This document shows, piece after piece, positions 34,527-56,400 of a DNA stretch of 64,000 nucleotides. Source of the stretch: Paracyclopina nana (Eukaryota > Arthropoda > Copepoda > Cyclopoida > Cyclopettidae); NCBI GenBank assembly GCA_019096065.1, contig JAGUCH010000004.1, positions 4,464,001 through 4,528,000 of the forward strand. Reading direction: 5' to 3'. Within the stretch, counting starts at the first letter, position 1, and each line of letters opens with the position of its first letter. The position numbers were made by a program, and so were the translations under genes. The notes beneath the pieces were generated by a model. That model was not told the DNA's origin. It ran no database searches and saw only the letters and a program-made list of their open reading frames with translations.

Positions 34527-36015
34527 CCACACGCATGAGTCCAGCTCACGGAAATTGGAGAGTGAAAAATTAGCAAGGTGTTTCGGACTCTTACCCTTGG
34601 ATCGAAAACAGATCGTCCATGAATAGACTATGACAAATTAGCCTAGTGTTGACTAAACATTTCATCCCTGGATTGACTACTACTACGGACAGTCCCCAGA
34701 TGGATGAGACAGATCACCCTTGGATCAACTGTCAGAGCACACAGTCCTTGGATAGACCAGGACTGACAATTATTTGGTTATTCAAGAAAAATGAGCTGTA
34801 CTTGGATTGACAAGACAAATCGTCCTTGGATCGTCTATGAGAATATACAGTCCTTGGATAGAACAACAGTTTTTGTTGAATTCTAACATTGTACAGCTAG
34901 CTTTCAATCCAAGTACGATCTGTTTTTCGATGCAGGGACAGTCAGTTATGTCAGTATATCCAAGCACAGTTCATTCTAGTCGACCCAAATCCTGTTAAGT
35001 CATAGTAGTCAATCCAAGGACTATTCATTTCTTTGATCCACAAACTGTTTGTCTTCATAGTACATTCAAGGACAATCTGTCTTGTCGATCCAGGGACTAT
35101 GAGTTCTGTTAGTCTATCCAAGGGCAATCTGTTGCAGACTATCCAAGGACAGTATGTCCTAGTTGATCCAAGTATGGCCGCCTGGTGTTTCACACTAGGC
35201 AAGGCAAGGGCTCACTAGCATTACATGAGATGATTCCCATGTGTCGAGACAGCTGATCCAATTTTCATAACACCACACATACACTCGACAATGTCACAGT
35301 GTCACACTGGTCACAGAGTCCAACTTGCCATGGGGTCCCACTTGTCAGTGTTTCACAAAATGTGCTATCATCTCATGCTATGTCCCACAGGTCCTGGGTT
35401 CCAGCATCCCACTGCTCCTAGTGTTCCACTAGTCCCTGGGTCCCACAGGTCCCAGCATCTCGCTGGTCTAAGCGTCCCACTGGACCCATCATCCCACTGG
35501 TCCCAGCATCCCATTGGTCCCAGATCCCGGCCGTCCCACTGGTACTGGAATTTTTTACTATGAGCTATGAAGTGACTTTTTTGAAACTGTGTTAACAGAA
35601 AGTTAGCTAACATTGTTAAGTTAAAGAAAATAACAGAAAGTTAGGTAAGACCAGTGGGATGCCAGGACAAGTGGGACCCAGGGACCAGTGGGACCCTGGA
35701 CCCCTGAACCAAAAGGACCCCTGGACTAGTGAGACTCCTGGACCGGTAGGACCCCAGACCCCTGAACCAAAGGGAACCCGGGACTAGTGAGACCCCTGGA
35801 CCAGTGGGTTGCTCGGGACCAGTGAGACCCTGGGACCAATGGGACGCTGGGATTAGTGAGACCCTGGGACCAGTGAGATCCTGAGACCAGTAGGATGCTG
35901 TGAAGCATAAGACTCATCTTGCTGTAGCCCTCAGTGAGCCGCTGCCTTGTGCTAGAGTAACACACCTTGCCAATTTTTCACATTTTCCGTGAGCTCAACA
36001 CATGCATGTGGCCAC
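34527..36015. repeat. inner inverted-repeat unit containing two self-complementary minisatellites (array c and CCCACTGGTCCC array)
   Basis: The ends GGCCACACGCATGAGTCCAG / AGCTCACGGAAA (34527-34575) recur inverted at 35968-36015. Inside, 34590-34870 carries TTGGATCGAC units and 34900-35185 their reverse complement. Then 35290-35545 has CCCACTGGTCCCAG units, and 35655-35900 has GGGACCAGTGGGAC, again inverted. The open frames found here are products of the repeats. Confidence 0.65.
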
Positions 36016-36268: not shown

Positions 36269-37185
36269 CAGCCACCCAAAGAAGTGATTAAGGGGCAAAA
36301 ATGACACTTATAAAAGATGTGGAGAATGCAAAATTAGGGCTCCACACAAAAATTCACTTCATTTGGCTAAGGCCTGCTGAAGATATTGCAAATTAACCAA
36401 AAACGCTCATAAACATGTACCCTTGAGAATCCAAATCGAGAAAAAAGTCATAAATAAAAGTTGTAGCCCTGGCAAAATGAGAGCCACACACACAAATTCA
36501 GCTCATTTCGTTAATTGGGAGCGGAGAAAAATGGAAGTCTGTCATTTGGCGGAAAATCAAAAATTGCCGCTAATACTTGATTGCTTGGAGTAAGCTTTAT
36601 TTTAAGCCCAGTTGCGGCGCTAGGGGGCGCTGCTAAAATTCGAACACCAAATTTTGGCGTATGAAGCGGGTTCATAGAAGTTTCCGCTTTTCTTGATTCT
36701 TTCATAAATAGTCAGAGTAATAAATGGTTACATTACAATCTTTCTAGCACCATTGAAGTAGATCAGACCCGAAAAAAGCAAAAAATCCAAAATATGGGAT
36801 CAAATTACCATAAAAAAGATTGCCATTCCCACTCACACAAATGCAGACAGACAATTATTCAGCCACTGCAGATAACTATAAGGAGTTATTTCTTTCCCTC
36901 TTGGCAAATTTCTTGCTGTGATATAATATTTTCAGGAATTCACTACAGAAAAAGTTCAAAATTGCAATTTAGGTTTAGTTTAGTACGTAACCTAATGGCT
37001 TTAAGAGCGCCAAGCATCTAACGCCATCTGTGGCAGTTTCGACAACTAAATCGGCGCAGTGCAAGCAATCAAGTATAAAGATCATGCGCTATGGGGAGAG
37101 GAATGCATGTGTCAAATTTCAGGTTGCCTGCTCAAAGTATATGCACAGGGCTCCCAAATAATCGTACTAGTTCCAATGTGGACAG
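36269..37185 (-). repeat. foldback element, right arm (interrupted by MITE; continues at 47990-48000)
   Basis: Complement of the left arm, beginning CAGCCACCCAAAGAAGTGAT. Without the 502-bp MITE and the BEL element it is about 425 bp, matching the left arm's length. Its end GGACAGCTCC is completed after the BEL element. Confidence 0.8.
36574..37075. mobile_element. 502-bp MITE with perfect 14-bp terminal inverted repeats
   Basis: Ends TACTTGATTGCTTG and CAAGCAATCAAGTA. No coding frame of note. Contains GCGCTAGGGGGCGCTGC and CGCCATCTGTGGCAG. The undisturbed left arm has GCCGCTAATAAAGATC at the matching place, so the insertion boundaries are defined to within a couple of bases. If the terminal TA is target sequence, the duplication would be TA (Tc1/mariner-like), but an extra TA makes this ambiguous. 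Confidence 0.75.
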
Positions 37186-37509
37186 TGTGAAGATACGGTA
37201 CTGGAGTTGCGACGCGCCGACAACAACAAGCTGAGACTGTCCGCGGAAAATAGCTGTCAAACCGTCACGATTTTCCCGCTTATTTCTTATCAGTTACATT
37301 CTAGATTTCATACGATCGACAATAAAAAGTCTTTTACTTGTGATCTCTAGAGTTTGACCATTTTTATTCAGTGCGATTACACCTAGCTTCAGCGATATTC
37401 AAGGACACTTTCATCACTGCCTTCCACTGGTTTTGGATCGCACGATTTTCGATTGATTCACCGAGGCCGCGGGCTTCAGGATTCTGATTTCTTCGTGACT
37501 ACTCGAACA
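37186..37509 (+). repeat. 5' LTR of BEL/Pao element
   Basis: TGTGAAGATACGG ... CTCGAACA. Contains AATAAA at 37321-37326, a likely poly(A) signal. Identical base for base to the 3' LTR by eye. Confidence 0.95.
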
Positions 37510-37521
37510 TGGCGCCCAACG
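37510..37521 (+). other. primer-binding site
   Basis: TGGCGCCCAACG directly after the 5' LTR. The TGG start and sequence resemble the complement of a tRNA-Lys 3' end; the exact tRNA was not tested. Confidence 0.7.
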
Positions 37522-37672
37522 GGTAAATTCACGCAGAGGAGAGACAAAGAGAGCACCAACAAGCAAGTCGGGGAGACTCGCCCCGATTGGGGGACCTGGA
37601 AAAGAACTTGAAATACACATTAAAACAAAAGTTGCTTACATTAGTCAGAGGGCCGCGGTAGCCTGAGGCTAG

Positions 37673-40600
37673 ATGTCTGGCAGGAAAGAGGAGCGGCCTA
37701 AAAGAGTAAGAAAACCACCAGGTTGGCTGCAAGGGTACTCCGTCGGTAGCAAAAGAACATTGGGACGGGGGACGACCTACAGACAGAAGTCACCAAAGAG
37801 GCCGGACAAAAGGTGGGGCTTCAACGACACCACTATCAATAGCTCTAGAGTAGAGATTAGGGAGGATCTCAACAGGTTCAGGGAGGACTCAGAAGAGTCC
37901 ACAGGGAGCATCAGAATTCTCGGAGACATGGCAGCAAATAACACGATCGACATGGAGGCAGCCATAAAAGAACTAGTCAAGGTCTCGCCGGCGACACTGG
38001 TGGAGAGATGGAAGATTGATGCGGCAGAGCATTACTCGAACCTGGAAGCAATAAAGAAAGAGATCAGTACAGACAAACCCGCAAGGAAACTGAAAATGAT
38101 AGCGAGACGAGCACAGACATTGAAAATGGACATTGCAACTGAAGCAGCAAGGCTGCTGGAGGGAATAAAAGGGGAAGACGCGCAAATGATCGCAAAATTC
38201 AAAGCGGAAAGCGTCGAACCTCTAATGAAAGAGGCAAATGCAGTGGAATACCTCGCGGAAAAGAACCAGAAGAAGAAGGAACAAAAGGAATTTGAGGAAA
38301 TGCTGAAAGAAGAAGAACAAGCCAACCAGGCTGGTGACGTCACTATGGCAGACGCGGAAAATAAGGAGGAAGGCCAAACTGATAACGAGGACGAAGAGGA
38401 CTTCCTGGTTGATTGGGTCACAGAGCATTACGAAATGACGGAAAAGATAAATGAAGCCGCGATGAAAGTCAGAACAGCCGGAAAACAAGAGTACGAGGCC
38501 TTGGTAGCCTCGGCTCAAGGCTGGGAGGAAAGAAGAAAGGAGGCAGAAAAACAACTACGAGAGCTGAAAAGTCAGGGCGAAGAGGTTGATCTACAAGCAG
38601 TTGTCATGGAAAAAAGACAGGCTGCAAACAACCTAGACTTCATAAAAAACCCTGGCGCAAGGGCGGTAGGGCGAGGACGAGGAAAAGGACCTCAAACAAA
38701 ATTCAAGTTCCCAGGGAATCCGGGATTTTCTACGCCCAACCCAATAAGTGGTGATTTGGAAACTCCAAGGTTCAACGATACATCAAGGCTACCAGGAACG
38801 ACGACGTGGCAATTGTCAGGAAATATGTCAAGGACGGACTACAACGAAAAACTCACGTTAGAGGAGACGTACCTTGCAAAAGACACGGTGCTAGACGACT
38901 GGGGAGACTATGTCTCTGGGGAGGTCGATTGGAGTGACCTCTATAATGGCACAAATCTGAAACAGTACTACAACGTCGCTGCAGCACCTGACACAGTCAG
39001 AGACAACATAAAAGGATACTTTGACGGAGAGGATCCAGCGAAATACAGAGCCTTCAAAGAGCTAATCCACGCAAAAATTATCAAGAAGAAAAACTTGGAC
39101 TGGTTCGACAAGATGGCTACCCTGAAAGCTTGGACAGGGGGACAAGCTTACAGAAAGATTGGACGCTACGACTGCAGCAGGCTAGGCTTAGTGAAAGCAT
39201 TGAAGGCCCTGGACGCGCAGTACGGTAGCAACCACGGCGAAGCAGCAGAGCAACTCTCTAAACAAATGCTATACATGGCAAAAATGGCACCAGTGGATGT
39301 GAGAGCGCCAAACACAATCGGAGACATGGTCAACATCCTAGAAGAAATGGTGGACCTAAATGTGCGGTCCGGAAAGGATCCAAAAGATGGCGAGGACCAT
39401 TTGTTGGGGATGATCAAAATGACTCCGGAAACCAAAATGGATTACCAATCTTTCAAAGTCGCAAAATTCCAGTCGAAGAACTCATTGAGGCTCTTCTTCA
39501 CGTGGGCCAGAGAAAGAACCCAGGAGGGAATTAGCGAACTCAAAGCAAAAAACACAAGAGATGCTTTAAGGAGCAAACTACTCTCGGAAAGCAGCTATGA
39601 CAACTACAAAAGAAACAGAGGAAACCAAAAGTTCAAGTTTTACACAAGAAAGGGCAGAGAGGTAGTCATGGCCCTTGAGGACGACAGCTACTCGGAAGAG
39701 ACTGAGTCTGAGGACGACGACGACGGGGTGTTCTTGGGGGCACACAAGCAAAAAGACCCATGTGTGGTATGTGGAACAAATGACCACAAAGCACTCAAAT
39801 GCGAAAACTGGGAAAAGTACACAATTCCTGAAATAAAAAAGAAACTGGAGTCGGCTGGAATTTGCTTCAAATGCCTCAGGGGAAAACACCCAACAGAAAG
39901 ATGCAAGGCTAGAGAAAACTGCATCAAGTGCGGAGCTGAAGATCACCACTCTAAGCTACACATAAACTTGAACAGACGAGCATCAGAAGGAGACGCGGTA
40001 ACAGCAGCATTGTTGGCCAGCATCGAACAAAGACTCGCTAGGTTACCAGCGCTTGAGAAAAAACTGGACCAATTGTCAAAGGAGGCTGTGGCATTTACGG
40101 GAGGGGACCATGGAAGTCCCCACCACAAAGCACAGGTAGTTGACCACGGAAGTCAACACCAAGAAGAAAGCCCAGACGTCATAGCACTCACAGCTAGTGA
40201 CGCAAAATCGTGGAGAACACTGCCAATAGAGATAGCAGCAACGAGCGACTTCGAAGAGTTCATTCCAATCAACATGGTACTAGATGAAGGATCAAGCCTC
40301 ACAATAATAGACCCAAAACTTAAGGATGATTTGGCATTGGGAGGAAGAGAAGAGATCCTGAAAGTACATGTGGTGGGAGACGGCGAAGTCATCAAAAGAA
40401 AATCGCATCTCACTGAGGTGTTCGTTCGAGCTAAAGGGGGAAAAAGGTGGTTCAAACTGAAAGCAAAGACCTTTGGCTTACCTGCAGCAATCGAGCCAGT
40501 TGACCCAAATGAAATTGGCGCTCACTATCCAGAAGTCAAAAAGATCAAGTTCCCGGTGCCGGTAGAAGGACCAGTGAGAATGCTGCTCGGATTTGACAAT

Positions 40601-43600
40601 TTGCATCTCATGAGAAGTCTCCAAGACATATACGTCCAAAATGGACCACTGGTGCGTAAGACACCACTGGGTTGGACAATGTTATACCACCCAAGGACCG
40701 GAGGACACGAGGTTGCGATGATGGTCAGCGATTGGAGCCAATACAATGCGGGATGCGCCCTGAAAGACAGTGAATTGCAGTTCATGCTGGATAGAAGCAA
40801 TGGAATCGAAGCATTGGGAATAGATCGGGACGAACAGAGATCAAAAAGACTAACTCTAGCTGACGAAACAGCGCTGAAAAAGATGCAAGAATCGATTCAC
40901 CAGGATGAAGACGGCCACTATGTGGTGGACATCATGTGGATTGAAGACCCGCCTAAACTACCAGAAAATTGGGAAAAGGCGAAACGCATACAAGCCGGCA
41001 TAGATATGACGCATAAGGCAGATAAGGAGGTCTGCCAAGCTGTCAAAAATACAATGGATGATTACGAGAAGAAAGGAATCATAGAGAAGGTGCCAATCGA
41101 AGAAATGAAAAAAGGCTTTTGGCTAACTTTCTTCTGCGTGGCGAAAAGAGCGAGCCTAACAACAAAGTTTAGATTCGTCTACAATGCAGCTCAGAAGTTT
41201 GATGGAGTAAGCATTAATGACTGCCAGTACACTGGACCTAATTTCCTTGAAGACATCTTCGATGTCCTCGTCAAGTTCAGGTTCGGGGACGTGGCAGTTG
41301 CAGCGGACATCGAAAAAATGTACTTGATGATTGGAGTGCCACCAAAGGATAGAAAGTACTTGAGAATCTGGGTGTTCGGAGAAGCATATCAGTTCAAAAG
41401 ATGGCCATTCGGACTGCGAGCAGCGCCAAGTGTTGCGAACTTCGTGGTGAAGCACCACTTGAACAAATATGGCTCGAAAGAGCTAAAAGAGCACATCCAA
41501 ATATATATGGACGACATGATTATTGCCATGCCAGACGTGGAGACCGCAAGAAGAGTAACAAATGAAGCAGCAGAACTATTGAGTAGGTGCGGTATGAACC
41601 TGCGAAAGTTCGTGGCAAACAACATGGAAGCATTAAAGGACATACCTGCAGAATATCATGCGAGTACATTGACACTCGAAGGAAGTGACGGAGGACAAGT
41701 GTTACATTCCACCCTTGGCATAAGCTGGAATACGAACACAGACGAACTGGGATACAAGTTCGTCAAGCCAGACTTGCAAAAGATAACGAAAAGGACAATA
41801 CTAGCAGAACTCCACAAGGTCTTCGATCCGCTGGGGATACTGGCACCATTCATGATACACGGACGTGAAAGCTTCCAGTGGGTGTGCATGGCTGAAAAAG
41901 AGATTAAAATCAAATGGGACACAGATCTCACGAAACTCGACAACGACTTGGTCAAGAAAGCGTTAAAGAGATTCGAAAAATGGGTGGGACAGTTAGAAGA
42001 GGCGTCCAAGGTTAGCTACCCACGGAAGGTAGCAACCACAGCCAAGAACTGTGAAATCCACATGTGCAGCGACGGCTCAGACATAGCTTTTGGGTGCACA
42101 GTGAGCGTACAAAATGAACAGGGGGACATTAACCTGTTGACCACCAAAGCAAAGCTCCAGAAGCCAAAAAAGCACACAATACCAAAGGTCGAACTTGCTG
42201 GAGCACTAATGTCAGCAAGACTCTCTAATCGACTACGAGAGATGTTCCAGATCAAGAGAGAACAGATACATTACTGGGTGGATAACAAACCGGTGATCTG
42301 TTGGATTAGAAAGCCTGGAGTTGAAAGAGAGGTCTTCATCAGGAATCGAACGATCGAAATAAGTGACACCACGGAGCTCAGTCAATGGAACTACATCAAT
42401 ACCTTGGACAATCCAAGTGATCTGCCAAGTAGAGGATGCACAATCCAGGACTTGATACAAGACACGAAGTACTGGAAAGGACCTGAATTTTGGAAGGAAG
42501 ACAAGGCAGACTGGCCGAAATACGAGCTAGAAGTTACAGAAAATGAGCTCGCAGGCACAATCGACAAAATATTCTTAACGGGCCTCGGACGCGACGTAAG
42601 AATTAAGTGTGACCAGGTGGCAGAAATCAAAGATCACCAGGTCAAACTAGACAATGACACTGGCCTGGCCATATCCAGACAAACATTCAGGAGAATGCAA
42701 AAACTGAAGCTCAAGGAGAACACATACAGGTGGTCAATCCTGGTAAGGGGACTAACAAGAGTAAAAAACTTACCTGAAGTAGAGGACGTCCTTCCACTGG
42801 AGCTGATGGCGGAGACAATCACGGAGCTGATCATCCTTGGCCAATGGACGACGCTACAATCTGAAATTACATATTTTGAGAAGAATGGCGTGTGGCAGTC
42901 AAAGGAAATTAGAAAATACAGCCCCGTATTCGATGACGATGGAGTAATGAGAGTGTTCTCGAGGAACATAAAACAAAAAGATATACCTCAAAGCAGAGTC
43001 TTCCCAATCTGGATGACGACGTCGTGGGTGTTCACTCTGATTGTCTGGCAAATACATGTCAATGAGGGCCACTTGGCGATCGACCCATTGTGGCTAAAGT
43101 TAACAGAAAAGTTTGGGGGACCAAACGTGAGGAAGATGGCAAGAAGAATATCGACGCAGTGCCCGAGGTGCACTAGATGGAGATCAAAACTGCTGACTCA
43201 ACTGATGGGACCAGCACCAGACTTAGAGTTGGAGAACATCAAGCCGTGCAACAAAATTGCGATGGACTTCACCGGACACTACATGGTAGAACTGAAAGAA
43301 CAAAAGTTCAAGGCCTACATATTGGTAACGGTGTGTGTGCAAACCAAGGTGGTGACGTTGGAGGCAACTTTGGGTCGAAGCACAGAGTCGTTGATCATGG
43401 CAATACAACGAATGACAGCAAGGAGAGGACAGATCTCAGTCATGTACAGTGACAACGAAGGATCATTCGAAAAACTCGGAGTGACAGTCAACAGGCTACC
43501 TGAAAAGAAAAAACACGAGGACAGCCACATAGACTGGGCAAAGTTGAAACTCACAGTGGGTAGTAAGGTGAGAGAGTGGTACTTCAATCCGCCAAGAGAT

Positions 43601-44176
43601 CACGAGGCAAATGGACTTGTGGAGAGCCATGTCAAGCTTGTTAAACGGGCCATGGAAGCCTGTGAACATGGGACATACGACTTTGAGACATTCAGAACAA
43701 TGGTGTCGATGGCGGAAGACAGGTTGAACAACAAACCACTGGCAATCCTGAAAGACAAGGAAGGTTATAAAGTGATCACGCCAAATCACCTCGTCACAGG
43801 AAGGACGGGCGAGGCAGCCTTCGTGGAACTAGGCACAAAGTTCTCTGAAAAAATAAAAAAATTGGCTGAACACATAACGAAAATGAACAAGACATGGATG
43901 GATTATTACCTCCAAACATTGAATGTTAGGGAGAAGTGGACACAATCAAAGGTGAACTTGAGAGTCGGAGACAGAGTTGTAGTAGCTACAGAAGAGCTTA
44001 AACAACATAGACCACGATGGTCAGTCGGAACTGTGGAAAAAGTGCTATTAGGTGAAGACGGTAAAGTAAGATCTGCTATGGTGAGATGTCATAAAGGAGG
44101 ACTCTTAGAGCGAGGCATACGGCAACTAGCCATGTGCCAAAACATGCCACTGATCAACGATGATGACCAAGAATAA
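37673..44176 (+). CDS. BEL/Pao Gag-Pol polyprotein
   Basis: 2167 residues in one open frame, no stop or frameshift. The N-terminus is basic (RPKRVRKPPGWL), then a long charged coiled-coil Gag region (~100-330). Three zinc knuckles follow at ~697-775: CVVCGTNDHKALKC, CFKCLRGKHPTERC and CIKCGAEDHHSKLH (last position His). The protease active site is LDEGSS at 870-875, with Glu where Thr or Ser is usual. Reverse transcriptase has YMDD at 1278-1281. RNase H begins around CSDGSD (Asp1467), with KVELAGA and WVDNKP. Integrase has an HHCC zinc site (HVNEGH at 1795, CPRC) and D1865, D1927, E1984. It ends in a C-terminal BEL-type region. All catalytic positions appear intact, so the element may be autonomous. 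Confidence 0.93.
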   Translation: MSGRKEERPKRVRKPPGWLQGYSVGSKRTLGRGTTYRQKSPKRPDKRWGFNDTTINSSRVEIREDLNRFREDSEESTGSIRILGDMAANNTIDMEAAIKELVKVSPATLVERWKIDAAEHYSNLEAIKKEISTDKPARKLKMIARRAQTLKMDIATEAARLLEGIKGEDAQMIAKFKAESVEPLMKEANAVEYLAEKNQKKKEQKEFEEMLKEEEQANQAGDVTMADAENKEEGQTDNEDEEDFLVDWVTEHYEMTEKINEAAMKVRTAGKQEYEALVASAQGWEERRKEAEKQLRELKSQGEEVDLQAVVMEKRQAANNLDFIKNPGARAVGRGRGKGPQTKFKFPGNPGFSTPNPISGDLETPRFNDTSRLPGTTTWQLSGNMSRTDYNEKLTLEETYLAKDTVLDDWGDYVSGEVDWSDLYNGTNLKQYYNVAAAPDTVRDNIKGYFDGEDPAKYRAFKELIHAKIIKKKNLDWFDKMATLKAWTGGQAYRKIGRYDCSRLGLVKALKALDAQYGSNHGEAAEQLSKQMLYMAKMAPVDVRAPNTIGDMVNILEEMVDLNVRSGKDPKDGEDHLLGMIKMTPETKMDYQSFKVAKFQSKNSLRLFFTWARERTQEGISELKAKNTRDALRSKLLSESSYDNYKRNRGNQKFKFYTRKGREVVMALEDDSYSEETESEDDDDGVFLGAHKQKDPCVVCGTNDHKALKCENWEKYTIPEIKKKLESAGICFKCLRGKHPTERCKARENCIKCGAEDHHSKLHINLNRRASEGDAVTAALLASIEQRLARLPALEKKLDQLSKEAVAFTGGDHGSPHHKAQVVDHGSQHQEESPDVIALTASDAKSWRTLPIEIAATSDFEEFIPINMVLDEGSSLTIIDPKLKDDLALGGREEILKVHVVGDGEVIKRKSHLTEVFVRAKGGKRWFKLKAKTFGLPAAIEPVDPNEIGAHYPEVKKIKFPVPVEGPVRMLLGFDNLHLMRSLQDIYVQNGPLVRKTPLGWTMLYHPRTGGHEVAMMVSDWSQYNAGCALKDSELQFMLDRSNGIEALGIDRDEQRSKRLTLADETALKKMQESIHQDEDGHYVVDIMWIEDPPKLPENWEKAKRIQAGIDMTHKADKEVCQAVKNTMDDYEKKGIIEKVPIEEMKKGFWLTFFCVAKRASLTTKFRFVYNAAQKFDGVSINDCQYTGPNFLEDIFDVLVKFRFGDVAVAADIEKMYLMIGVPPKDRKYLRIWVFGEAYQFKRWPFGLRAAPSVANFVVKHHLNKYGSKELKEHIQIYMDDMIIAMPDVETARRVTNEAAELLSRCGMNLRKFVANNMEALKDIPAEYHASTLTLEGSDGGQVLHSTLGISWNTNTDELGYKFVKPDLQKITKRTILAELHKVFDPLGILAPFMIHGRESFQWVCMAEKEIKIKWDTDLTKLDNDLVKKALKRFEKWVGQLEEASKVSYPRKVATTAKNCEIHMCSDGSDIAFGCTVSVQNEQGDINLLTTKAKLQKPKKHTIPKVELAGALMSARLSNRLREMFQIKREQIHYWVDNKPVICWIRKPGVEREVFIRNRTIEISDTTELSQWNYINTLDNPSDLPSRGCTIQDLIQDTKYWKGPEFWKEDKADWPKYELEVTENELAGTIDKIFLTGLGRDVRIKCDQVAEIKDHQVKLDNDTGLAISRQTFRRMQKLKLKENTYRWSILVRGLTRVKNLPEVEDVLPLELMAETITELIILGQWTTLQSEITYFEKNGVWQSKEIRKYSPVFDDDGVMRVFSRNIKQKDIPQSRVFPIWMTTSWVFTLIVWQIHVNEGHLAIDPLWLKLTEKFGGPNVRKMARRISTQCPRCTRWRSKLLTQLMGPAPDLELENIKPCNKIAMDFTGHYMVELKEQKFKAYILVTVCVQTKVVTLEATLGRSTESLIMAIQRMTARRGQISVMYSDNEGSFEKLGVTVNRLPEKKKHEDSHIDWAKLKLTVGSKVREWYFNPPRDHEANGLVESHVKLVKRAMEACEHGTYDFETFRTMVSMAEDRLNNKPLAILKDKEGYKVITPNHLVTGRTGEAAFVELGTKFSEKIKKLAEHITKMNKTWMDYYLQTLNVREKWTQSKVNLRVGDRVVVATEELKQHRPRWSVGTVEKVLLGEDGKVRSAMVRCHKGGLLERGIRQLAMCQNMPLINDDDQE

Positions 44177-47100
44177 CGCACAAAAATCACCAAGCAGACA
44201 CCGTAGCAATTCACCGAAAAACATGAGCACAAAAACAAAAACAAACACGACTCACGCAACCTACAAAACTAAACCGGAAACACAACAGCTGAACGCTGCG
44301 AATAAAAAACTCGTCAAAATACAACACGTCAAAGATAAACCGCCAAAATTGAGCGAAAGGAATTCGACCTCGCAGAGGCTGTCTTCAAACGAGGAGAACC
44401 GCCAAGAAAAGTCAATTACTACTATAGTGAGTAAACTAATATCGCAAACCAAACATTTCCTCATAAAAATCGTAAAAATACTAGAAAACGCGACGAGCCA
44501 AATCACCGAACTACTGCTAGTCGAAAAGCCGAAAATGCCGAGCGAAAGAGACAGGCGGGGCAGGAGCCGGAGCAGGAGTAGATCGCGTGAGAGGGACTCG
44601 AAGAGGAAACTGGATAGATCAAGGTCAAACGATGTCCAACGCGAGGAAGAAAGACGTCGCGAAGCCGAACGAAGAGAAAAAGAGCGAAAAAGGATTGAAA
44701 ATGCCAACAAGCGAAGCAGAGAAAAAAGCGCATCGACGTCAAAAGAAGCGATCACGCCAAAGCTGGAGCGATCAGGCCCCGGTAGCCTGACGCCGAAGCT
44801 GAAAGCGAGGCTTGGACCAAGAGTGGGCTCCTCAAGCAGTCAAGAGGATGAAAGCCCAAGAAACCCGAATCAGCCCCCAGACCCCCCACTGGAGGAGGTC
44901 ATTAGAAGATGGGAAGAAAGGACCGGAGCAAGAATCGTAATCTATGACGAGTTCAACCTGGAAGAGATGCGAGAGATCTTTGAAAGATACTACCATGACC
45001 CAGGGACAATAATCCTGGGAAGCACGCTGAATTTTGGTCCACGCAACGAAAAGTTGTACATGCCAAACAAACAACGCAAGAAGGCTCAACAAATTGATCT
45101 GTTGAAGGCATTGATCAGGGCCATACAGTTGTACCACGGAGTCCCACCAAACGAAGCGATGCTCATATCACATGGCCCCCAATATGTACACATCGTCGAC
45201 AGATTTGACCAAATGCCACACCAACCAATCTTGGAGGATGAAGAGAGGCTGCAGTTCTTGGCGGCCAGACAAATATTGGAACAAGAAGCCATGGGATCGA
45301 TGGATTCAGGAATGGAGGTCAGAGACTTATTCAAGGCAATAGAGAGTGGAAAAGGCCTAGCTCCAATGCCAGAGATCGCTAAAGCCCTCAACAATGGGAA
45401 AAATTCAAACACTCTGTACCTCAGAAGAACCGCAAATGTACTCACAAACGAAGAAGTCAAGGAATTGGCCGCTGTGAGGAAAGGCTTCAGAATTTGGACG
45501 AGGGAGAGCTTGCAGGAGGCACTCGATTGGCTAAAGAAAGCCTGCGAACTCGAAGGCAAGAAGACGAGCATGATATTCATCGAAGACAAGGCCGAACAAA
45601 CTCCGGAAGAAATGCTACCTGTAAGAGAAAAAGTAGTAATAAAAACTGTCGAGAAGATCGTGGAAGTACAAGCATCGCACCTCGGAAGTTCGAGCTTGGA
45701 ACCCATGGACGTCGAGCCAAGCACATCGAGGAGAACATCAGCAACGTCAGCAAAGTCAGTTCAAATGATTCCAGCGGGGGCCGAAGACGAATACTACGAA
45801 AGAGTCCCAGGGGAGGACATGATATATGTCCCAAAAAGACGGTCAAGGTCAAGCTCAGGGACAAGAGTGGACTTTAAGCCACCAATGGAGGACGAGAAAA
45901 AGCCGAAACAAAATTTTAAGATTTGCCCAGATGTCGAGTTCGGCACGATCATCAACGCTGCGGGAGCAGAAAATTATGGAGCTAAAAAGTGCAAGGTACA
46001 TCTATGCCAATCCACTAATCCATTTCAGCTCGATGAGTGCGTAAACCGCAGAGAAGAAATATTCCCACCATTAACCGTCAAGGATGCGTTGAGGAACGCC
46101 ACGATGGCAAGAGGGACGAAATATGACCTGTTTGACCAGAAAAAGAGGGTCACCTACATCCTCGGCCGAACCAACGACACCAACAATGAATACTGCTCGG
46201 AAAGTTGGGAGGAAATAGAAGCAAAGCTGGAAGAAAATGGATACTTCAAAGAAATACTCGACACCAGAGTCATGACAATCGACACGGAGGGAATGTCAGA
46301 AAAATACAAGAGCGCCTACATTGAAGGTAAAGAAATCACGGTGGGCGAGCACAGGGACATTTTTGCATACGCACACTTCGGCGCAACAAATGGAATCGCT
46401 TTCGGGGTGAGAGTCATGTTCGTGGGCTACAAAATCATGGGCAAAGAAATACCCTCCCGAATCAAAGGACTCCTGGGTGACAAACGAGTCTGCAAAATCC
46501 AGTTTGGGATAGATATGGACTTGAGAAAATTCGCCAGGGTGGGAGCAAAAGTAATAAACTGGGTTGAAGCACAACACCTAGTGATGTTACTCGACCCCCA
46601 AATGAGCTCAATTAATCCGAAGTCAGGCAAGGATGGAGCGTTGATGGTGATGGGAGTTGAGAACAGGATTGGCAAAGTCGACTACAGAGTGGAGCACCGA
46701 GCGATTGATGTCGACAAATACGAAGAGAAAATACTCTACTATGATAGGCAGGATCTCTTCACACCGTTGGCATGTCTGGAGATGGTTGCAGCAACCTCTG
46801 TATTGCGAGTCGGTGGAGATGAAAAATCAGACTGTAGAGGTTACATGATGTTCTGGCTGGCACTGCTACGTGAAAGGCCATTTAAGTTCGGAGGACAACC
46901 CATCAGGGTCTACGAAGGTCTCCTAGAGGGCCACGGACGCCCTCGGGAAACCAGAGTGGACGATGGACTGCAAGGCCTAAAATACACAAACATCAAGTAC
47001 AACAGCGAGAAGACGGTGGTGGAAAACTTCAAAGACTTCGACAAGGAGTTCATGCTCCAAAAATGGTATTTGAAAAGCGAGGAGCAGAGAGAGGTATCGG

Positions 47101-47555
47101 ATTATGAAACAGACATGGTCAGCTACATAGAAAATTGGCACTCAGCAGGAGTCGTGGCGGAAGCAATCCAAAGAGCAACCGCCCCACCAGAAACCGCTGA
47201 CGAGTCAGACCAACAAATGAAGCTGGAAACTCCACATCCTTGCCGAAAATGTGGGAGAAATGACCACAGGGAAAAAGACTGCGATGAGAAGATGGGATGC
47301 ATGAACTGCTTCTCCTCCGCACACAAAACAGACGCGTGCACATTCTACACCGCGCGCTGCCAGTTGTGTGGAGACTACGGACATTCCCAGCAGATGCATA
47401 TGTCGAGAGACCTGGTGCAGCTGCATGTCAAGAAAAGAATCGTGGCTTACAGACACGCGATGGGAGCAATGACCCTGGATAGAAACGCCGCCTTCAAAGC
47501 CATCAAACGCAAGGACGGCATGGCCCTAAGAAGAATCGACAAGCACAGAAAATAA
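44160..47555 (+). CDS. BEL/Pao second ORF: SR-rich, DEDDy exonuclease-like, zinc-knuckle protein
   Basis: 1131 residues, overlapping the end of gag-pol by 17 bp in another frame (ATGATGA arrangement). Residues ~126-190 are Arg/Ser-rich (RSRSRSRSRERDS) and then highly charged helical. Residues ~240-500 have no recognised fold. Residues ~700-880 look like a DnaQ/WRN-type 3'-5' exonuclease. Exo I is TIDTEG (D708, E710). Exo II is KIQFGIDMDLRKF (D787), preceded by LLGDKRVC. Exo III is YDRQD (Y861, D865). Three zinc knuckles end the protein (from residue 1028: CRKCGRNDHREKDC, CMNCFSSAHKTDAC, CQLCGDYGHSQQMH). These parallel the Gag knuckles, including the final His. No signal peptide or membrane segment, so it is not an envelope. 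Expression may be by reinitiation or splicing. Domain assignment is by eye. Confidence 0.85.
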   Translation: MMTKNNAQKSPSRHRSNSPKNMSTKTKTNTTHATYKTKPETQQLNAANKKLVKIQHVKDKPPKLSERNSTSQRLSSNEENRQEKSITTIVSKLISQTKHFLIKIVKILENATSQITELLLVEKPKMPSERDRRGRSRSRSRSRERDSKRKLDRSRSNDVQREEERRREAERREKERKRIENANKRSREKSASTSKEAITPKLERSGPGSLTPKLKARLGPRVGSSSSQEDESPRNPNQPPDPPLEEVIRRWEERTGARIVIYDEFNLEEMREIFERYYHDPGTIILGSTLNFGPRNEKLYMPNKQRKKAQQIDLLKALIRAIQLYHGVPPNEAMLISHGPQYVHIVDRFDQMPHQPILEDEERLQFLAARQILEQEAMGSMDSGMEVRDLFKAIESGKGLAPMPEIAKALNNGKNSNTLYLRRTANVLTNEEVKELAAVRKGFRIWTRESLQEALDWLKKACELEGKKTSMIFIEDKAEQTPEEMLPVREKVVIKTVEKIVEVQASHLGSSSLEPMDVEPSTSRRTSATSAKSVQMIPAGAEDEYYERVPGEDMIYVPKRRSRSSSGTRVDFKPPMEDEKKPKQNFKICPDVEFGTIINAAGAENYGAKKCKVHLCQSTNPFQLDECVNRREEIFPPLTVKDALRNATMARGTKYDLFDQKKRVTYILGRTNDTNNEYCSESWEEIEAKLEENGYFKEILDTRVMTIDTEGMSEKYKSAYIEGKEITVGEHRDIFAYAHFGATNGIAFGVRVMFVGYKIMGKEIPSRIKGLLGDKRVCKIQFGIDMDLRKFARVGAKVINWVEAQHLVMLLDPQMSSINPKSGKDGALMVMGVENRIGKVDYRVEHRAIDVDKYEEKILYYDRQDLFTPLACLEMVAATSVLRVGGDEKSDCRGYMMFWLALLRERPFKFGGQPIRVYEGLLEGHGRPRETRVDDGLQGLKYTNIKYNSEKTVVENFKDFDKEFMLQKWYLKSEEQREVSDYETDMVSYIENWHSAGVVAEAIQRATAPPETADESDQQMKLETPHPCRKCGRNDHREKDCDEKMGCMNCFSSAHKTDACTFYTARCQLCGDYGHSQQMHMSRDLVQLHVKKRIVAYRHAMGAMTLDRNAAFKAIKRKDGMALRRIDKHRK

Positions 47556-47656
47556 TCAGTTATGGAAAAGGCAGAGGGATATACTCCTCTTTTTATAATC
47601 TTTTATCAAAATTCTTATATGTCAAATGTCTCAGCTAGCAAAGTTGCGACGATCGC

Positions 47657-47664
47657 AAGGGGGA
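47657..47664 (+). other. polypurine tract
   Basis: AAGGGGGA one base before the 3' LTR, the usual position for plus-strand priming. Confidence 0.75.
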
Positions 47665-47665
47665 C

Positions 47666-47989
47666 TGTGAAGATACGGTACTGGAGTTGCGACGCGCCGA
47701 CAACAACAAGCTGAGACTGTCCGCGGAAAATAGCTGTCAAACCGTCACGATTTTCCCGCTTATTTCTTATCAGTTACATTCTAGATTTCATACGATCGAC
47801 AATAAAAAGTCTTTTACTTGTGATCTCTAGAGTTTGACCATTTTTATTCAGTGCGATTACACCTAGCTTCAGCGATATTCAAGGACACTTTCATCACTGC
47901 CTTCCACTGGTTTTGGATCGCACGATTTTCGATTGATTCACCGAGGCCGCGGGCTTCAGGATTCTGATTTCTTCGTGACTACTCGAACA
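47666..47989 (+). repeat. 3' LTR of BEL/Pao element
   Basis: Same 324 bp as the 5' LTR. Followed by GACAG, then the remaining ~11 bp of the foldback arm and the ~90-bp end of the hAT-like element. Confidence 0.95.
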
Positions 47990-48322
47990 GACAGCTCCTT
48001 TGGTTGGAGCGATCCCAAGCTTTTTGCTTATGTAGCTCAAGCTGGGTTTCAGCTTCAAGCTTTCAAGCCAAGCTGAAACTCGTTCCATCACTCTTATTGC
48101 GCCGAATAAAACCGCCGATGCCGGTTGTTCTTGAGAAAAGTGTGGTGTATTTTCATTAAAAAAATCTGGCAGCACTAGGTAGAAGGTTTAGCGGATGCGG
48201 ATGTTGGAGAATCCCGCCAAAAAGTAAACAAAAAACTGACTGTGACTTAGCCGTCACTTGTCAGCGCCTCATCTTTATTCTTTCGACTTTCGAGAACTCT
48301 CTAACACAACTGGCGCGAAAGA

Positions 48323-49438
48323 ATGTTTTCATACTTGAGACGAGCGTTCAATCGCTTATTTCCATCGAGCAATGATAATCGAGAAGACAGGACAGGACAA
48401 ACTGACATTTTAAAATCAACGACTGATGTCTGTCAGCAACGCCTCACACGCATAGAGGCTTCTAGTCAGCCGAGTTGCTTCGCAGATTTTGAATTTTCAT
48501 CCCAAGAAGGCTCCTCTGATGAAGAGGACTGCAATGAGAGCGTGACATGTCCACAAGTTCCGATTGAAAGCCTCGACACCGAAGTTGTGGAGCGCCGGAA
48601 TAACATTGTGGATGCTCTCTGCTCTTTTTCCATTGTCACTCCCGAAGTAGGCGATTTTATCAAGAGCCAGCCCTTTGCTGTGCCCAACTTGGACTCCACA
48701 CCTGTCAACAACCACCTCTGGTTTCCTCCTGGCCATAAAGTCCTCACGGCTTGCTGCTACGACTACCTCAACTATCGATGTGAAACGAGCTCGGTCGGCC
48801 TCAGGAATTTGCTTTCTCACGTCGAGTCCCTTCATTCTGGCAAAGATGATCCCAAACTGTGGTTCGACCATGGTGGCCTCTACTATTCTTTTTGCCTGGG
48901 CAAAGTGGTCTCTCTTGACGAAGTTGAGCACTGCACCACCTGTCAGACCTGCTTTGAGTTCAGAGTTGCGAAATGCCTCGAATGCGGATCGTCATTTGCA
49001 GTCTTGTGCCGCAATTGCAACCCACGTAGCCCAAGGGGCAAATGCGAAATGTGCGAGCCAGACAGGAAGAGTAACGACAATGGAGATTATTCCTTCACTG
49101 ATGCATGCTCTAACGAAAGTTTGAAAAGTGCCTCTCAACTCGAATTTGAGGTGAATTGTGACTTTTTCGTCCTCCTCTTCGTCCGCGCCTAAATTATTCA
49201 GGTTCTTCTTTTTTCAAGGATGGGGAAATTGTAGAAGGAAGCAGCCGGAGCAGCAAGGCCAGCTACAATGGAGATGTCTTTTTCCACTTTGACTTGTTCG
49301 CCAACAGCCATGTACGTAAAAATAGCTCTTTTTCTTTGTACCCGCAACGGAATCATAACTCTTAATCTCTAGGGCGATGACGGCAAAAGCAGAGAGGCTA
49401 TTAATGAAGATGATGTCCCACCTAGCGAGTGTCCGTGA
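48323..49438 (+). CDS. cysteine-rich protein of unknown function
   Basis: Three exons, 48323-49150, 49219-49311 and 49373-49438, join in frame to 328 aa (introns 68 and 61 bp). I do not recognise it. The N-terminus MFSYLRRAFNRLFPSS is amphipathic and basic. The middle is acidic and Ser-rich. Residues ~150-205 contain FPPGHKVLTACCYDYLNYRC. A Cys cluster at ~205-250 (HCTTCQTCFEF, KCLECGSSFAVLCRNC, KCEMC) has CxxC pairs consistent with two zinc sites. The C-terminus contains DGEIVEGSS and VFFHFDLFANS. The start is the first ATG, soon after a likely promoter region; the gene begins ~220 bp beyond the transposon stack. The acceptor at 49217-49218 was chosen over 49199-49200 because the latter leads to a stop. 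Confidence 0.65.
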
Positions 49439-50805: not shown

Positions 50806-50841
50806 AACAATAATATGCACCAATTGCTTTTCGGCAATTAA

Positions 50842-51870
50842 GGAAAACCTTCGCAGAATTTTCAATAACCACTCTAGCGGCACCGAGAGCTTTTTGAAAA
50901 TCTTATGGACCATCTTGAGGGGCTACCCCTAGATAGTCACCATGCCAAAGGGTTTTGCCCTTGGGCCCCTGGGAGGGGAGATATTGGCCCTTAAAATTTT
51001 GGGAAATTCTTATGAAGTAAAACTTTGGGCCCCTCTCACGGCCCTATGAAGCAACTTTTATCTACCCATTTTTTGGTCATTGTTGGGCCCCCTAAGGGTG
51101 TCTTTGGAAATGGGATAAAAGTTGTCGTCTTGCATGCCCACTATCCTCCAAGGGGCAAGATGTGAATTTTAGGGGTTAACTTTGGAGCAAAATTGAGGAA
51201 ACTCCCCCCGGATGGATTTTGTTCATTTTTTGCACAGAGTCAGCCAAAGATGAGTACTTTCAAATAAAAAAAATAAAAAAATGGTCCATTTTTGTTTGGA
51301 GCCAGATATTGTCTGTCAAAGTTTTGCTAATTTTAGCCATAATAACTTTGTTTAACAGACTTCAGATTCATGACCTAAAAATGAAATTTTATTATAATAA
51401 TAATATGCTGTTAACATTTTTTAATGGACCATTTTTTTATTTTTTTATTTGAAAGTACTCATCTTTGACTGACTCTGTGCAAAAAATGAACAAAATTCAA
51501 CCGGGGGGAGTTCCCTCAATTTTGCTCCATAGTTAACCCCTAAAATTCGCATTTTGCCACTTGGAGCACAGTGGGCATGCAGGGCAACAACTTTTATCCC
51601 ATTTCCAAAGACACCCTTAGGGGGCCCAACAATGACCAAAAAATGGGTAGATAAAAGTTGCTTCACAGGGCCGTGAGGGGGGCCCAAAGTTTTACTTCAT
51701 AAGAATTTCCCAAAACTTTGAGGGCCAATATCTCCCCTCCCAGGGGCCCAAGGGCAAAACCCTTTGGCATGGTGACTATCTAGGGGTAGCCCCTCAAGAT
51801 GGTTCATAAGATTTTCAAAAAGCTCTCGGTGCCGCTAGAGTGGTTATTGAAAATTCTGCGAAGGTTTTCC
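50842..51870. mobile_element. 1.03-kb foldback MITE flanked by TTAA (piggyBac-like target)
   Basis: Starts GGAAAACCTTCGCAGAATTT and ends with the complement, flanked by TTAA at 50838-50841 and 51871-51874. The arms, ~446 bp each (50842-51287 and 51425-51870), are nearly fully complementary (estimated well over 90%). The loop is ~137 bp and AT-rich. TTAA duplication is the piggyBac signature, but no transposase is present. Small open frames inside (51219-51452 and others) are incidental. Confidence 0.85.
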
Positions 51871-51874
51871 TTAA

Positions 51875-53425: not shown

Positions 53426-56400
53426 CTAAAATTGGTACCACTTCCTATTTTTGTAATGGTTCTTGAGTTCATTAGCTCGGTGCGCGTAAATCTTGGCCTC
53501 GTTGGACATGTTCTCCATTTGGTCCTCGATCTCATTCAACTTCTGTCCTCGCTCAACCATAGCGCGATGTGCTTTGGAGACCTCAGAGGAGCCGCCAGCG
53601 GCATTGGACTGAAGGGGTACCATGCTGGAACCGGTGATATGCTTGGCCACCCCAGATCCCGGTTTGCCAGCACTTTCTCCGAACAGCTCCTCCCGGTCGA
53701 GAGGCTTGGGACCGCCGCCAAAGAGAAGCGACGAGGCGCCCTTGAGGAAGCCTTGCTTCGGGGGCTCGGGCATGGGGATGTCGTCTGTGAACACGCGGCC
53801 CTTCATCTCCGGCAATTGCCTCATGAATTCCGAGCTCACCGAGAACTTCTGGACCTCAGTCGGGTTGGCCATGAAGAGGCCATGGCCATAGTTTGAAAAG
53901 CACATAGTGAGGCCAACCCTGGGACTAGCGTTGGCGAAAAAGTACATGTCTAGCATGGGTCTCAGCGACGGGAGGCTGAAGGCTTTCACGAACCCATCAC
54001 TGGTGTAGGCAACCAAGCAAGGGGTGTACTTGACTCCTCCAAAGTTGATGATTGCGGCCGCTAGCACAGTGGCCGACTCGTTGATGGTTTGAGTGTACAT
54101 TTGTCGTTGAGAGGGTAGGGAGTAGACAGCCGCGGACTTTTCCGTGCAGAACACGACCACTTGCTGATCCCCGGTTGCAGAGGCTGCATTATTGGCCGAG
54201 TCACAACCCACTGTGGTGGAGGAGGCCCCACTCGACGCCACCGAATTGGTGCTGTGCAAATCCGGGTGACGTGACAGGCGAGACGCAGTGGCTTTCACGT
54301 TCTCCAGGGGCTCGTCGTCACGCACTGAGAGGCCATGATTGCTGCAGTCAAAGAGAGCCATGCTCAGAACGGGGCCGCGGATGCGGAAGAGGCTGCCACT
54401 CGGGCTCACCACCACGGGCTCGGTGGTCCTCGGGTCGCCGCGTTCCGGCAAATTGATGACAATGATAACAACTGACCCGAGGCTAGTGCCGACCAACGCA
54501 CACGCTGTCAACGTGTAGTCGTTTTTGGTGGCAAACGTGTCGGCAAACTCCACTGCTGTCACGCCCTCGCTGGAAATGATCTGGTCAAGGCTGTTCATGG
54601 ATGAGCTGAGACTTTTCGAGAAGGACGAGTCGTCCGCAGAGGAGCCCGTTTTTTGCAGCCTTCGGCAGTCGGGGCTCTTGACGCGCGAAAGGCCTCCGTC
54701 CTTTTGCGGCCCCAATAGCTTTTCCCTCTCGGGCTCGCCCGAATTCGGAGCCGGAGTCGCGACGACTTGGCTGTAATTACTGAGGTCAACCCTTTGAATG
54801 AAGTCGGATGGGGAGCCATCTGGCTTGGGAGACTTGGGCATCCGCTGGAACGGGTCTATCGAGCCGTAGAGGTCAGCAGTGCCCATATTGATGAGACACA
54901 CATTTTGCACTACGTCCACAATGACGAGACCAGAGCCATTGCCGTAAGCCATAAGGCTGTAGTTCGCATTCAGAGTCAGGCACTTGACCGGGCTGGGTGC
55001 TTCGCCATTGACCCAAGGGGTGAAGCAGACCAGCTCCGCATGGTAGCCGGGGCTTTTCTTTTGGGCCCCAGGCCGCAGCCTGAGGGGTGTGAAATATTCG
55101 TATGTGGGCTTGTCAAAGTTGAACGCATCCATTGGATCTGTGTAGGCGGAGGTTTGCGAGGCCACCTGCAACAGTGGCCTCGGCGGGAACTCGAAATGCT
55201 GAGGCTTGGAGTTGGGTGACCCTTCGTTGTTCTTTCGCTCCAGACCTTGGCCGAGGTTGGACACCTCGTACACTATTGGAATCTCCATGAACTTTGTTTC
55301 CGTCGCCTTCTCCTTCTTCTGAAACTTGAAGTACATCACATAGGAAGAGGCCCCAGCGATCGCCAAGAGGCGCGACTCGGTGCACAACGTGATGTTGGTG
55401 ACGGCAAACGGGTCCTCATCAAGGACGATGTCAACGCCACTGTTGCCGTCCTTCTTCACTTTCTCGAAGAACTTTGCGGTCTTGATTCGGTAGAGGGATT
55501 GCATGCAAGTGGAGGACGAGTCCCAAAAGCGTATCGACCCATCCGCATGCCCAGTGATGACTAGCTCTGAATAAGCGCAGGTCTCGGACCCGTCGCAGCC
55601 CCCGTCCACCGGCCACTGGCCGGCGGAGAAGCCCTTCCTCTCTTTCGAGGAGCTCATGCAGGTGCCCACGTTGTAGAGAGCACAAATGAGGTCAGCGGGG
55701 CAGTCCACTATGTACTCGCAATACGTCACGGGGGAGTCATTGAAATCCATAGCATAGGGATTCTTGAAGCACGGATAGCCAGGACTTTTGCAGTCGATGG
55801 CCACTACGTCGTTGCTAAGCATAGCTAGAATGGCTTTGGGCTCTTGGTAGTCGTTGGAGAAGGGTGAGTCGGTGACCAGTAGAAAGTCAAGCACGCAGTG
55901 CTCCAGCTCTAAGACAGTCGTGGATTTGCCACGCATGAACGTTATGGCCGGGATCACTCCAGTCACGTCAACGGGAAGGCCACCGGAGAAGACAAAGTAG
56001 TCAGTGTAATTGGTACGGTCCACCTTCCAGATGACCTTTTCAATGGGCTCGCACGGGTCAAACTTGCCCGTTTCTCTGCTCTTCTTGCCGTGGGGGAAGA
56101 TCACCGAGGCTGGCTTCCTGGTGGCCAAGCCTTCGCCCACCTGGGCCACAGGCTTCACATTCCAAGTGACGAGGCTGCCATCGCCATAGGAGCAGACGAA
56201 CTGCTTGCCCTCCATATGCCAACTGATGGACTTGAGGGCCTGATTGTAGATGAACCTCTGCTCGCCTTTTTTCGCGGCCAAGTCCCACAAGCAGATTAGG
56301 CCAGTGTCAAAGCTCACCAGGAGCTTGCTGTTATCCGCCGGGCTTACGCTTATTGTCTTGACAGCCCCTGGAATTGAACGTGCATTCATAAGAAGATTTT

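Follow-up and report, generated by a model that had tools for sequence, protein, structure and literature searches.

Organization of the BEL/Pao element and its surroundings

The window, a 64,000-nt stretch of the genome of the copepod Paracyclopina nana (assembly GCA_019096065.1, contig JAGUCH010000004.1, positions 4,464,001 to 4,528,000 of the forward strand; positions below count from its first letter), contains an LTR retrotransposon whose two LTRs are identical over 324 of 324 nt, with TG...CA ends, and which is flanked on either side by the 5-bp duplication GACAG; it is a recent insertion with intact open reading frames. The features of the element are the following:

37181..37185, strand not applicable: target-site duplication GACAG, left copy
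37186..47989, + strand: BEL/Pao LTR retrotransposon, delimited by LTRs and target duplication, with gag-pol
37186..37509, + strand: 5' LTR, TGTG...AACA, 324 nt, no difference from the 3' LTR
37510..37523, + strand: likely primer-binding site, assigned from its position, its first base directly after the 5' LTR
37673..44176, + strand: ORF1, gag-pol, 2167 aa, stop codon at 44174-44176
44160..47555, + strand: ORF2, starting at its first ATG, 14 nt upstream of the ORF1 stop codon and in a different frame
44538..44627, + strand: basic Arg/Ser-rich stretch of ORF2, from sequence
44886..45563, + strand: ORF2 aa 245-470, its second conserved region, without known family
46257..46901, + strand: DEDDy 3'-5' exonuclease-like domain, the stretch that aligns with the EXD2-like family
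46281..46289, + strand: Exo I, D-x-E, D708 and E710 (numbered from the ATG)
46518..46520, + strand: Exo II, D787 (from the ATG)
46740..46754, + strand: Exo III, Y-x-x-x-D, Y861 and D865 (from the ATG)
47241..47399, + strand: C-terminal zinc-knuckle array, CCHC (47241-47282), CCHC (47298-47339) and CCHH (47358-47399)
47657..47665, + strand: likely polypurine tract preceding the 3' LTR, judged from sequence
47666..47989, + strand: 3' LTR, 324 nt
47990..47994, strand not applicable: target-site duplication GACAG, right copy

In Pfam searches, ORF1 matches, in this order, a weak Asp protease, a reverse transcriptase (RT), Peptidase_A17 (the Pao peptidase/RNase H region, 6.4e-29), an integrase (zinc-binding and core parts) and DUF5641, and it bears three zinc knuckles (aa 697, 731 and 750); no dUTPase family was matched at E ≤ 1. 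The element is thus a BEL/Pao, with RT, Peptidase_A17, integrase and DUF5641 present in the expected order. Elements of this superfamily are plentiful in the genome searched (92 Mb, 10 contigs), where at least 150 Peptidase_A17 matches were obtained, these being the best 150 of 243 candidates and the window's own match not being among them, and where many open frames exceed 2000 aa.

Directly past the 3' LTR lies a 295-aa open frame (48305-49192) in which several Cys pairs occur and for which Pfam gave no match, and about 3 kb behind the element an inverted repeat (50838-51874) has arms of 443 nt, 95% complementary, with a spacing of 151 nt. The - strand carries a 990-aa open frame (53426-56398) that matches LLGL, Lgl_C and, weakly, synaptobrevin and corresponds to an Lgl/tomosyn-like host gene, a gene of animal type; at 34699-34865 there is a 61-nt direct repeat in two copies, 77% alike and 106 nt apart. 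Searches of the genome for the spliced leader SL1 of nematodes returned no exact match and two matches with 2-3 mismatches, and the telomere repeat of nematode type had no match.

ORF2 occupies the position behind pol, where some BEL elements carry env. Its N-terminal part is strongly basic and rich in Arg and Ser (pI 11.1 for segment 130-250), and the second conserved region, at aa 245-470, contains 11 invariant columns among 11 copies; nothing significant was found for this region in Pfam when five members were scanned, and the PDB gave a single match, at chance level (E 0.83). The position behind pol might suggest an env-like protein in which the exonuclease motifs are incidental, and the hydropathy maximum is indeed above 1.6 in four of seven other ORF2 copies (L031, L033, L041 and L042; 1.65-1.98 over 19 residues). 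Nevertheless, the window copy reaches its maximum (1.51) within the exonuclease domain, and in L033, L041 and L042 the peak likewise belongs to this domain or to the part corresponding to it, in which one would expect buried strands; together with the basic Arg/Ser-rich N-terminus, the zinc knuckles and the profile homology to exonucleases presented below, this argues against an env-like identity, which appears very improbable.

Homology of the ORF2 domain to DEDDy exonucleases

The first-pass annotation of this DNA had proposed that ORF2 encodes a DEDDy 3'-5' exonuclease from residues that it recognized in the sequence, and D708, E710, D787, Y861 and D865 are all confirmed in the + strand frame with numbering from the ATG (710, 712, 789, 863 and 867 in stop-to-stop numbering), so that the five diagnostic residues are present in the order Exo I D-x-E, Exo II D and Exo III Y-x-x-x-D. 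The comparison with profiles of DEDD exonucleases, which had been set beforehand as one of the tests that could refute this identity, gave a match, and Pfam, PDB-profile and profile-profile searches all point to a PF01612-type domain with the site in register.

In Pfam, PF01612 (DNA_pol_A_exo1) is the sole family matched at E ≤ 0.1 by a 396-aa piece of the window copy (3.7e-4), and it is also matched by the full ORF2 (2.1e-3) and by a 220-aa piece (1e-4; 22.6 bits), the scores across query pieces being 18.3-22.6 bits and thus slightly below the curated cut-off of 23.6 at best. The same family is matched by 20 of the 29 members of alignment A1 (29 of the 37 rows of lineage A, described below, after omission of incomplete and near-identical rows), with a best value of 2.4e-5 and no other Pfam family at E ≤ 0.1, and NCBIfam gave no consistent family for the 29 members (DNA polymerase I for one, 0.075; an RNA-polymerase subunit for three, at 0.016 or above). 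A search of the genome with PF01612 returned 17 places at E ≤ 0.01, ten of them copies of ORF2, and four of these ten exceed the curated cut-off, one only when taken together with its neighbours in the frame and one being frame-broken.

A single-sequence search of the PDB with the window copy (phmmer) found nothing relevant. At E ≤ 1, the A1 profile matched five different PDB sequences, all weakly (E 0.025-0.29) and none passing 0.001, which by name are WRN in three cases (one of them a WRN homologue), EXD2 and a diDNase ancestor. Homology was then examined by profile-profile comparison of A1 with A2, an EXD2-like alignment. A2 combines the domain of the host EXD2-like gene with nine of the 12 proteins that a search with this gene had retrieved. 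In this comparison, hhalign joined the two families (97.3%, E 2.7e-11) over 180 columns at 18% identity with the five residues in register; a longer stretch separates Exo I from the next conserved strand in the ORF2 domain than in the EXD2-like family. On restricted columns, the real score was 90.4 over 148 columns, against 15.9 for the reversed profile and at most 20.7 for 30 column shuffles. When the A1 profile was compared with the 171 open frames of seven host PF01612 loci (L061-L065, L067 and L069), among which are those that we take to be RRP6-like and EXD2-like genes, only the EXD2-like L062 fell below E 1 (17.7 bits, E 1.2e-5, the latter relative to this small set of 171 frames).

The weakness of the single-sequence scores could be taken as a sign that the motifs match by chance in an unrelated protein. 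This explanation is refuted at the profile level by the shuffled and reversed controls, which lie far below the real score, and it is hardly compatible with the distribution of acidic residues, since only six of the 46 in the window domain are invariant in the 32 complete rows of lineage A and four of these six are the predicted D, E, D and D.

Beyond this genome, no homologue was found at E 0.01 in a collection of 5.8 billion proteins (candidates 1511 and 4783), in viral contigs (28 pattern matches, none confirmed) or in prokaryote genomes (four pattern matches, none confirmed). The evidence for the family consequently stands on one genome, and the absence of homologues elsewhere says little because these collections consist mainly of microbes, viruses and metagenomes.

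Two lineages of ORF2, with and without the catalytic site

The 220-aa domain piece matches 83 places of the same genome at E ≤ 0.001, of which 60 were read as loci (L007 and L017 being one place) and 56 were aligned, L005, L016, L039 and L057 being omitted because the start of the domain is missing. The 56 rows split into two lineages, A (37 rows, including the window copy) and B (19 rows, from loci L041-L060). In lineage A, every row with a letter at the position in question has the first Asp (35/35), the Glu (35/35), the central Asp (37/37), the Tyr (34/34) and the last Asp (34/34), and all five are invariant in the 32 complete rows, with identities to the window copy as low as 29%; since the rows contain near-copies, these counts do not represent independent events. 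Neighbouring sites vary, as illustrated by the Asp two positions before D787, where other copies have D, E, V, Y, S, G or Q. In the closest 28 of the 351 pairs of lineage A, pN is 0.035-0.119 and pS 0.65-0.90, and this low pN with saturated pS points to strong purifying selection.

The first-pass annotation had also suggested looking for the same ORF in other BEL/Pao elements, and it does recur there: Pfam identifies BEL/Pao pol in the pieces upstream of L041 (lineage B) and L008, and at least 34 of 53 ORF2 places are co-located with Peptidase_A17 places in hand-picked lists (53 of the 83 ORF2 places and 39 Peptidase_A17 places from the best 150 of 243), which makes this figure a minimum and not a rate. 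In several other B copies, the upstream frames resemble integrase ends by eye.

Lineage B is homologous to A over 370 columns in profile-profile comparison (99.8%, E 1.4e-30) and retains both the ORF and the C-terminal Cys/His motifs, but its site has been dismantled: the first Asp and the Glu are found in none of the 19 rows, the central Asp in five of 19 and the last Asp in one of 18, while the Tyr is kept in 15 of 18. None of the 18 members of the lineage B alignment (A3; 18 of the 20 loci L041-L060, with L048 and L051 omitted) matches PF01612, and its profile gives a weak relationship with the EXD2-like family (51%, E 1.5e-4) and one PDB match, no better than chance (E 0.98). B forms a single group (100/100) in a tree of 57 rows and, seen from the EXD2-like rows, is nested in A with a fork support of 85/99, long branches being flagged; in the simple reading of this topology, the catalytic site of lineage B was perhaps lost in one event. 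More distant matches to the domain exist in the genome beyond the A and B rows aligned, and there may be intermediate or independently changed lineages among them.

The conservation of the ORF in lineage B, in one case behind a BEL/Pao pol, in the face of the loss of its acids could indicate that the domain is a true DEDDy relative that serves only as a nucleic-acid-binding module, its residues being kept in lineage A for metal or RNA binding. There are precedents among cellular proteins, as both Maelstrom and EXD1 are described as DEDD derivatives in which catalysis has been lost and RNA binding retained (PMC5408684). A binding role, however, does not require five positions, including the Tyr, to be invariant in 32 of 32 complete rows of lineage A, and such a module is therefore an unlikely account of this lineage.

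Exonuclease-family homology, the five diagnostic residues, their invariance among relatives, the position behind pol and the zinc knuckles are established at the level of sequence. Conserved metal ligands alone do not prove hydrolysis by the ORF2 domain; taken together, these features argue with good confidence for a true DEDDy exonuclease that is probably catalytically competent in lineage A.

Zinc knuckles and expression of ORF2

Two or three zinc knuckles follow the exonuclease domain in 31 of the 32 complete rows of lineage A, the last being CCHH, and the sole exception is L035, in which the frame stops 45 residues past the domain. The same CCHC, CCHC, CCHH array is found in ORF1 of the window (aa 697-763). 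Local alignment of the two arrays scored 85, compared with 57 on average and 90 at most for 1000 shuffles in which only the letters other than Cys and His were permuted, and the real score was reached by five of the 1000; the ORF1 and ORF2 proteins match each other in blastp at 1.2e-4. This likeness is modest; it suggests, though it does not prove, that the ORF2 array is a copy of the nucleocapsid module of Gag, possibly acquired by duplication.

Among the lineage A copies with the end of pol in view, the frame of ORF2 relative to ORF1 has one offset in the window, L023, L028, L030 and L037 and the other in L025 and L029. The position of the first ATG of ORF2 relative to the ORF1 stop varies as well, between 14 nt upstream and approximately 250 nt downstream. 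Since the relative frame is not the same in all these copies, a fixed frameshift leading from ORF1 into ORF2 is unlikely. In four B copies (L041, L050, L058 and L060), an in-frame ATG overlaps the upstream stop as ATGA, an arrangement that resembles coupled termination-reinitiation, with the qualifications that this ATG is not the first one in L041 and L050 and that the upstream frame of L060 is just 109 aa long. The expression of ORF2 through re-initiation or from a separate message is possible.

Putative function of the ORF2 protein

The explanation that best fits these data is that ORF2 encodes an accessory protein owned by the element, the C-terminal half of which would be a 3'-5' exonuclease of the DEDDy type (RNase D / WRN / EXD2), followed by Gag-like zinc knuckles. 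In such an enzyme, D708, E710, D787 and D865 would hold two metal ions, nucleotides would be hydrolysed from the 3' end with the assistance of Y861, and the knuckles would tether the protein to the RNA or cDNA of the element itself, which, given their similarity to those of Gag, is the likeliest substrate. The role most readily envisaged, although put forward tentatively and with less than even confidence, is the trimming of 3' ends of the element RNA or of reverse-transcription intermediates. In the textbook scheme, an LTR that ends directly at the primer site leaves no extra bases to remove at the U5 end. As the LTR of this element does end directly at the primer site, simple trimming of LTR ends is not obviously needed, and the processing of RNA ends or of mis-extended cDNA fits better.

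The main alternative role would be that of a counter-silencing factor, an exonuclease that shortens host small RNAs and thereby shields the element. The kinship with DEDDy exonucleases is in agreement with this possibility, since cellular DEDD nucleases work in small-RNA pathways and the MUT-7 family is active in germline small-RNA production (PMC11347159), and the knuckles are of a nucleic-acid-binding type. Nevertheless, among the seven host PF01612 loci it is the EXD2-like one alone that the lineage A profile matches below E 1, and the resemblance of the knuckles to the Gag array suggests that the target is the nucleic acid of the element; counter-silencing is accordingly regarded as somewhat less likely than the trimming of the element's own 3' ends, about one chance in a few.

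A broader and speculative reading, which we hold to be possible but rather doubtful, is that the ORF behind pol represents one old lineage of the exonuclease fold with two descendants, one an active enzyme and the other catalytically dead but still binding nucleic acid. This would parallel the host, in which active small-RNA exonucleases stand beside Maelstrom/EXD1. With a copy of the Gag knuckles attached, the protein would act in the env position as a resident factor for replication or counter-silencing, long kept rather than occasionally captured.

Comparison with known systems

The first-pass annotation had considered an exonuclease to be an undescribed feature of BEL/Pao. This holds in the open-access literature searched, mostly screened by title and the start of the abstract, in which no DEDDy exonuclease was found in BEL/Pao; the case is less isolated than the claim implied, since an exonuclease ORF behind pol has been published for Juno and Vesta (PMC5408684). 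These LTR retrotransposons of bdelloid rotifers, as well as the Terminons, carry DEDDy ORFs (ORF3 in Juno and Vesta), for which 3'-end processing is one suggestion in that report, which presents the activity as undemonstrated (PMC5408684), and the rotifer ORF3s are described as derived from a DEDDy exonuclease (PMC5718144). According to the same authors, the Juno and Vesta copies are closer to other retroelement DEDDy ORFs than to cellular homologues (PMC5408684).

The window element resembles Juno and Vesta in having an RNase D-like DEDDy ORF behind the gag and pol of an LTR retrotransposon, and the Cys-His-Cys motif noted in Vesta2 and Vesta5 may be compared with the knuckles of ORF2 (PMC5408684). 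It differs from them in several respects: Juno, Vesta and TelKA are described as retrovirus-like, with a dUTPase in pol, whereas the pol of the window element is BEL/Pao; the Juno/Vesta motif is given as DEED, in contrast to the canonical D-E-D-D plus Tyr found here; and the extra ORFs of bdelloids show, according to the authors (PMC5408684), no significant departure from neutrality, whereas the constraint in the copepod is strong. A sister lineage without the site is likewise a feature of the present system that sets it apart from Juno and Vesta as they are described (PMC5408684).

Terminons, the giant Penelope-like elements of bdelloids, also have a DEDDy 3'-exonuclease as a retroelement accessory function, but they are built around a Penelope-like RT and reach up to 40 kb (PMC6431247). 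Dada elements of Laccaria and Ectocarpus similarly contain a DEDDy domain with all four catalytic residues in a mobile element, and the processing of cleaved 3' ends is its suggested role; these are, however, DNA transposons with the domain inside the transposase (PMC3706591). With respect to the cellular EXD2/WRN exonucleases (PF01612), the five residues are in register and L062 is the best host match of the lineage A profile, whereas the identity is 18%, more residues separate Exo I from the next strand in the ORF2 domain, and the cellular enzymes have no element context.

These comparisons place a DEDDy exonuclease in a main superfamily of LTR retrotransposons, with many copies in one genome and under strong constraint. 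The sister group without an active site, in turn, makes the question raised by the bdelloid elements, namely, what purpose an exonuclease ORF serves in a retroelement, testable by comparison between lineages.
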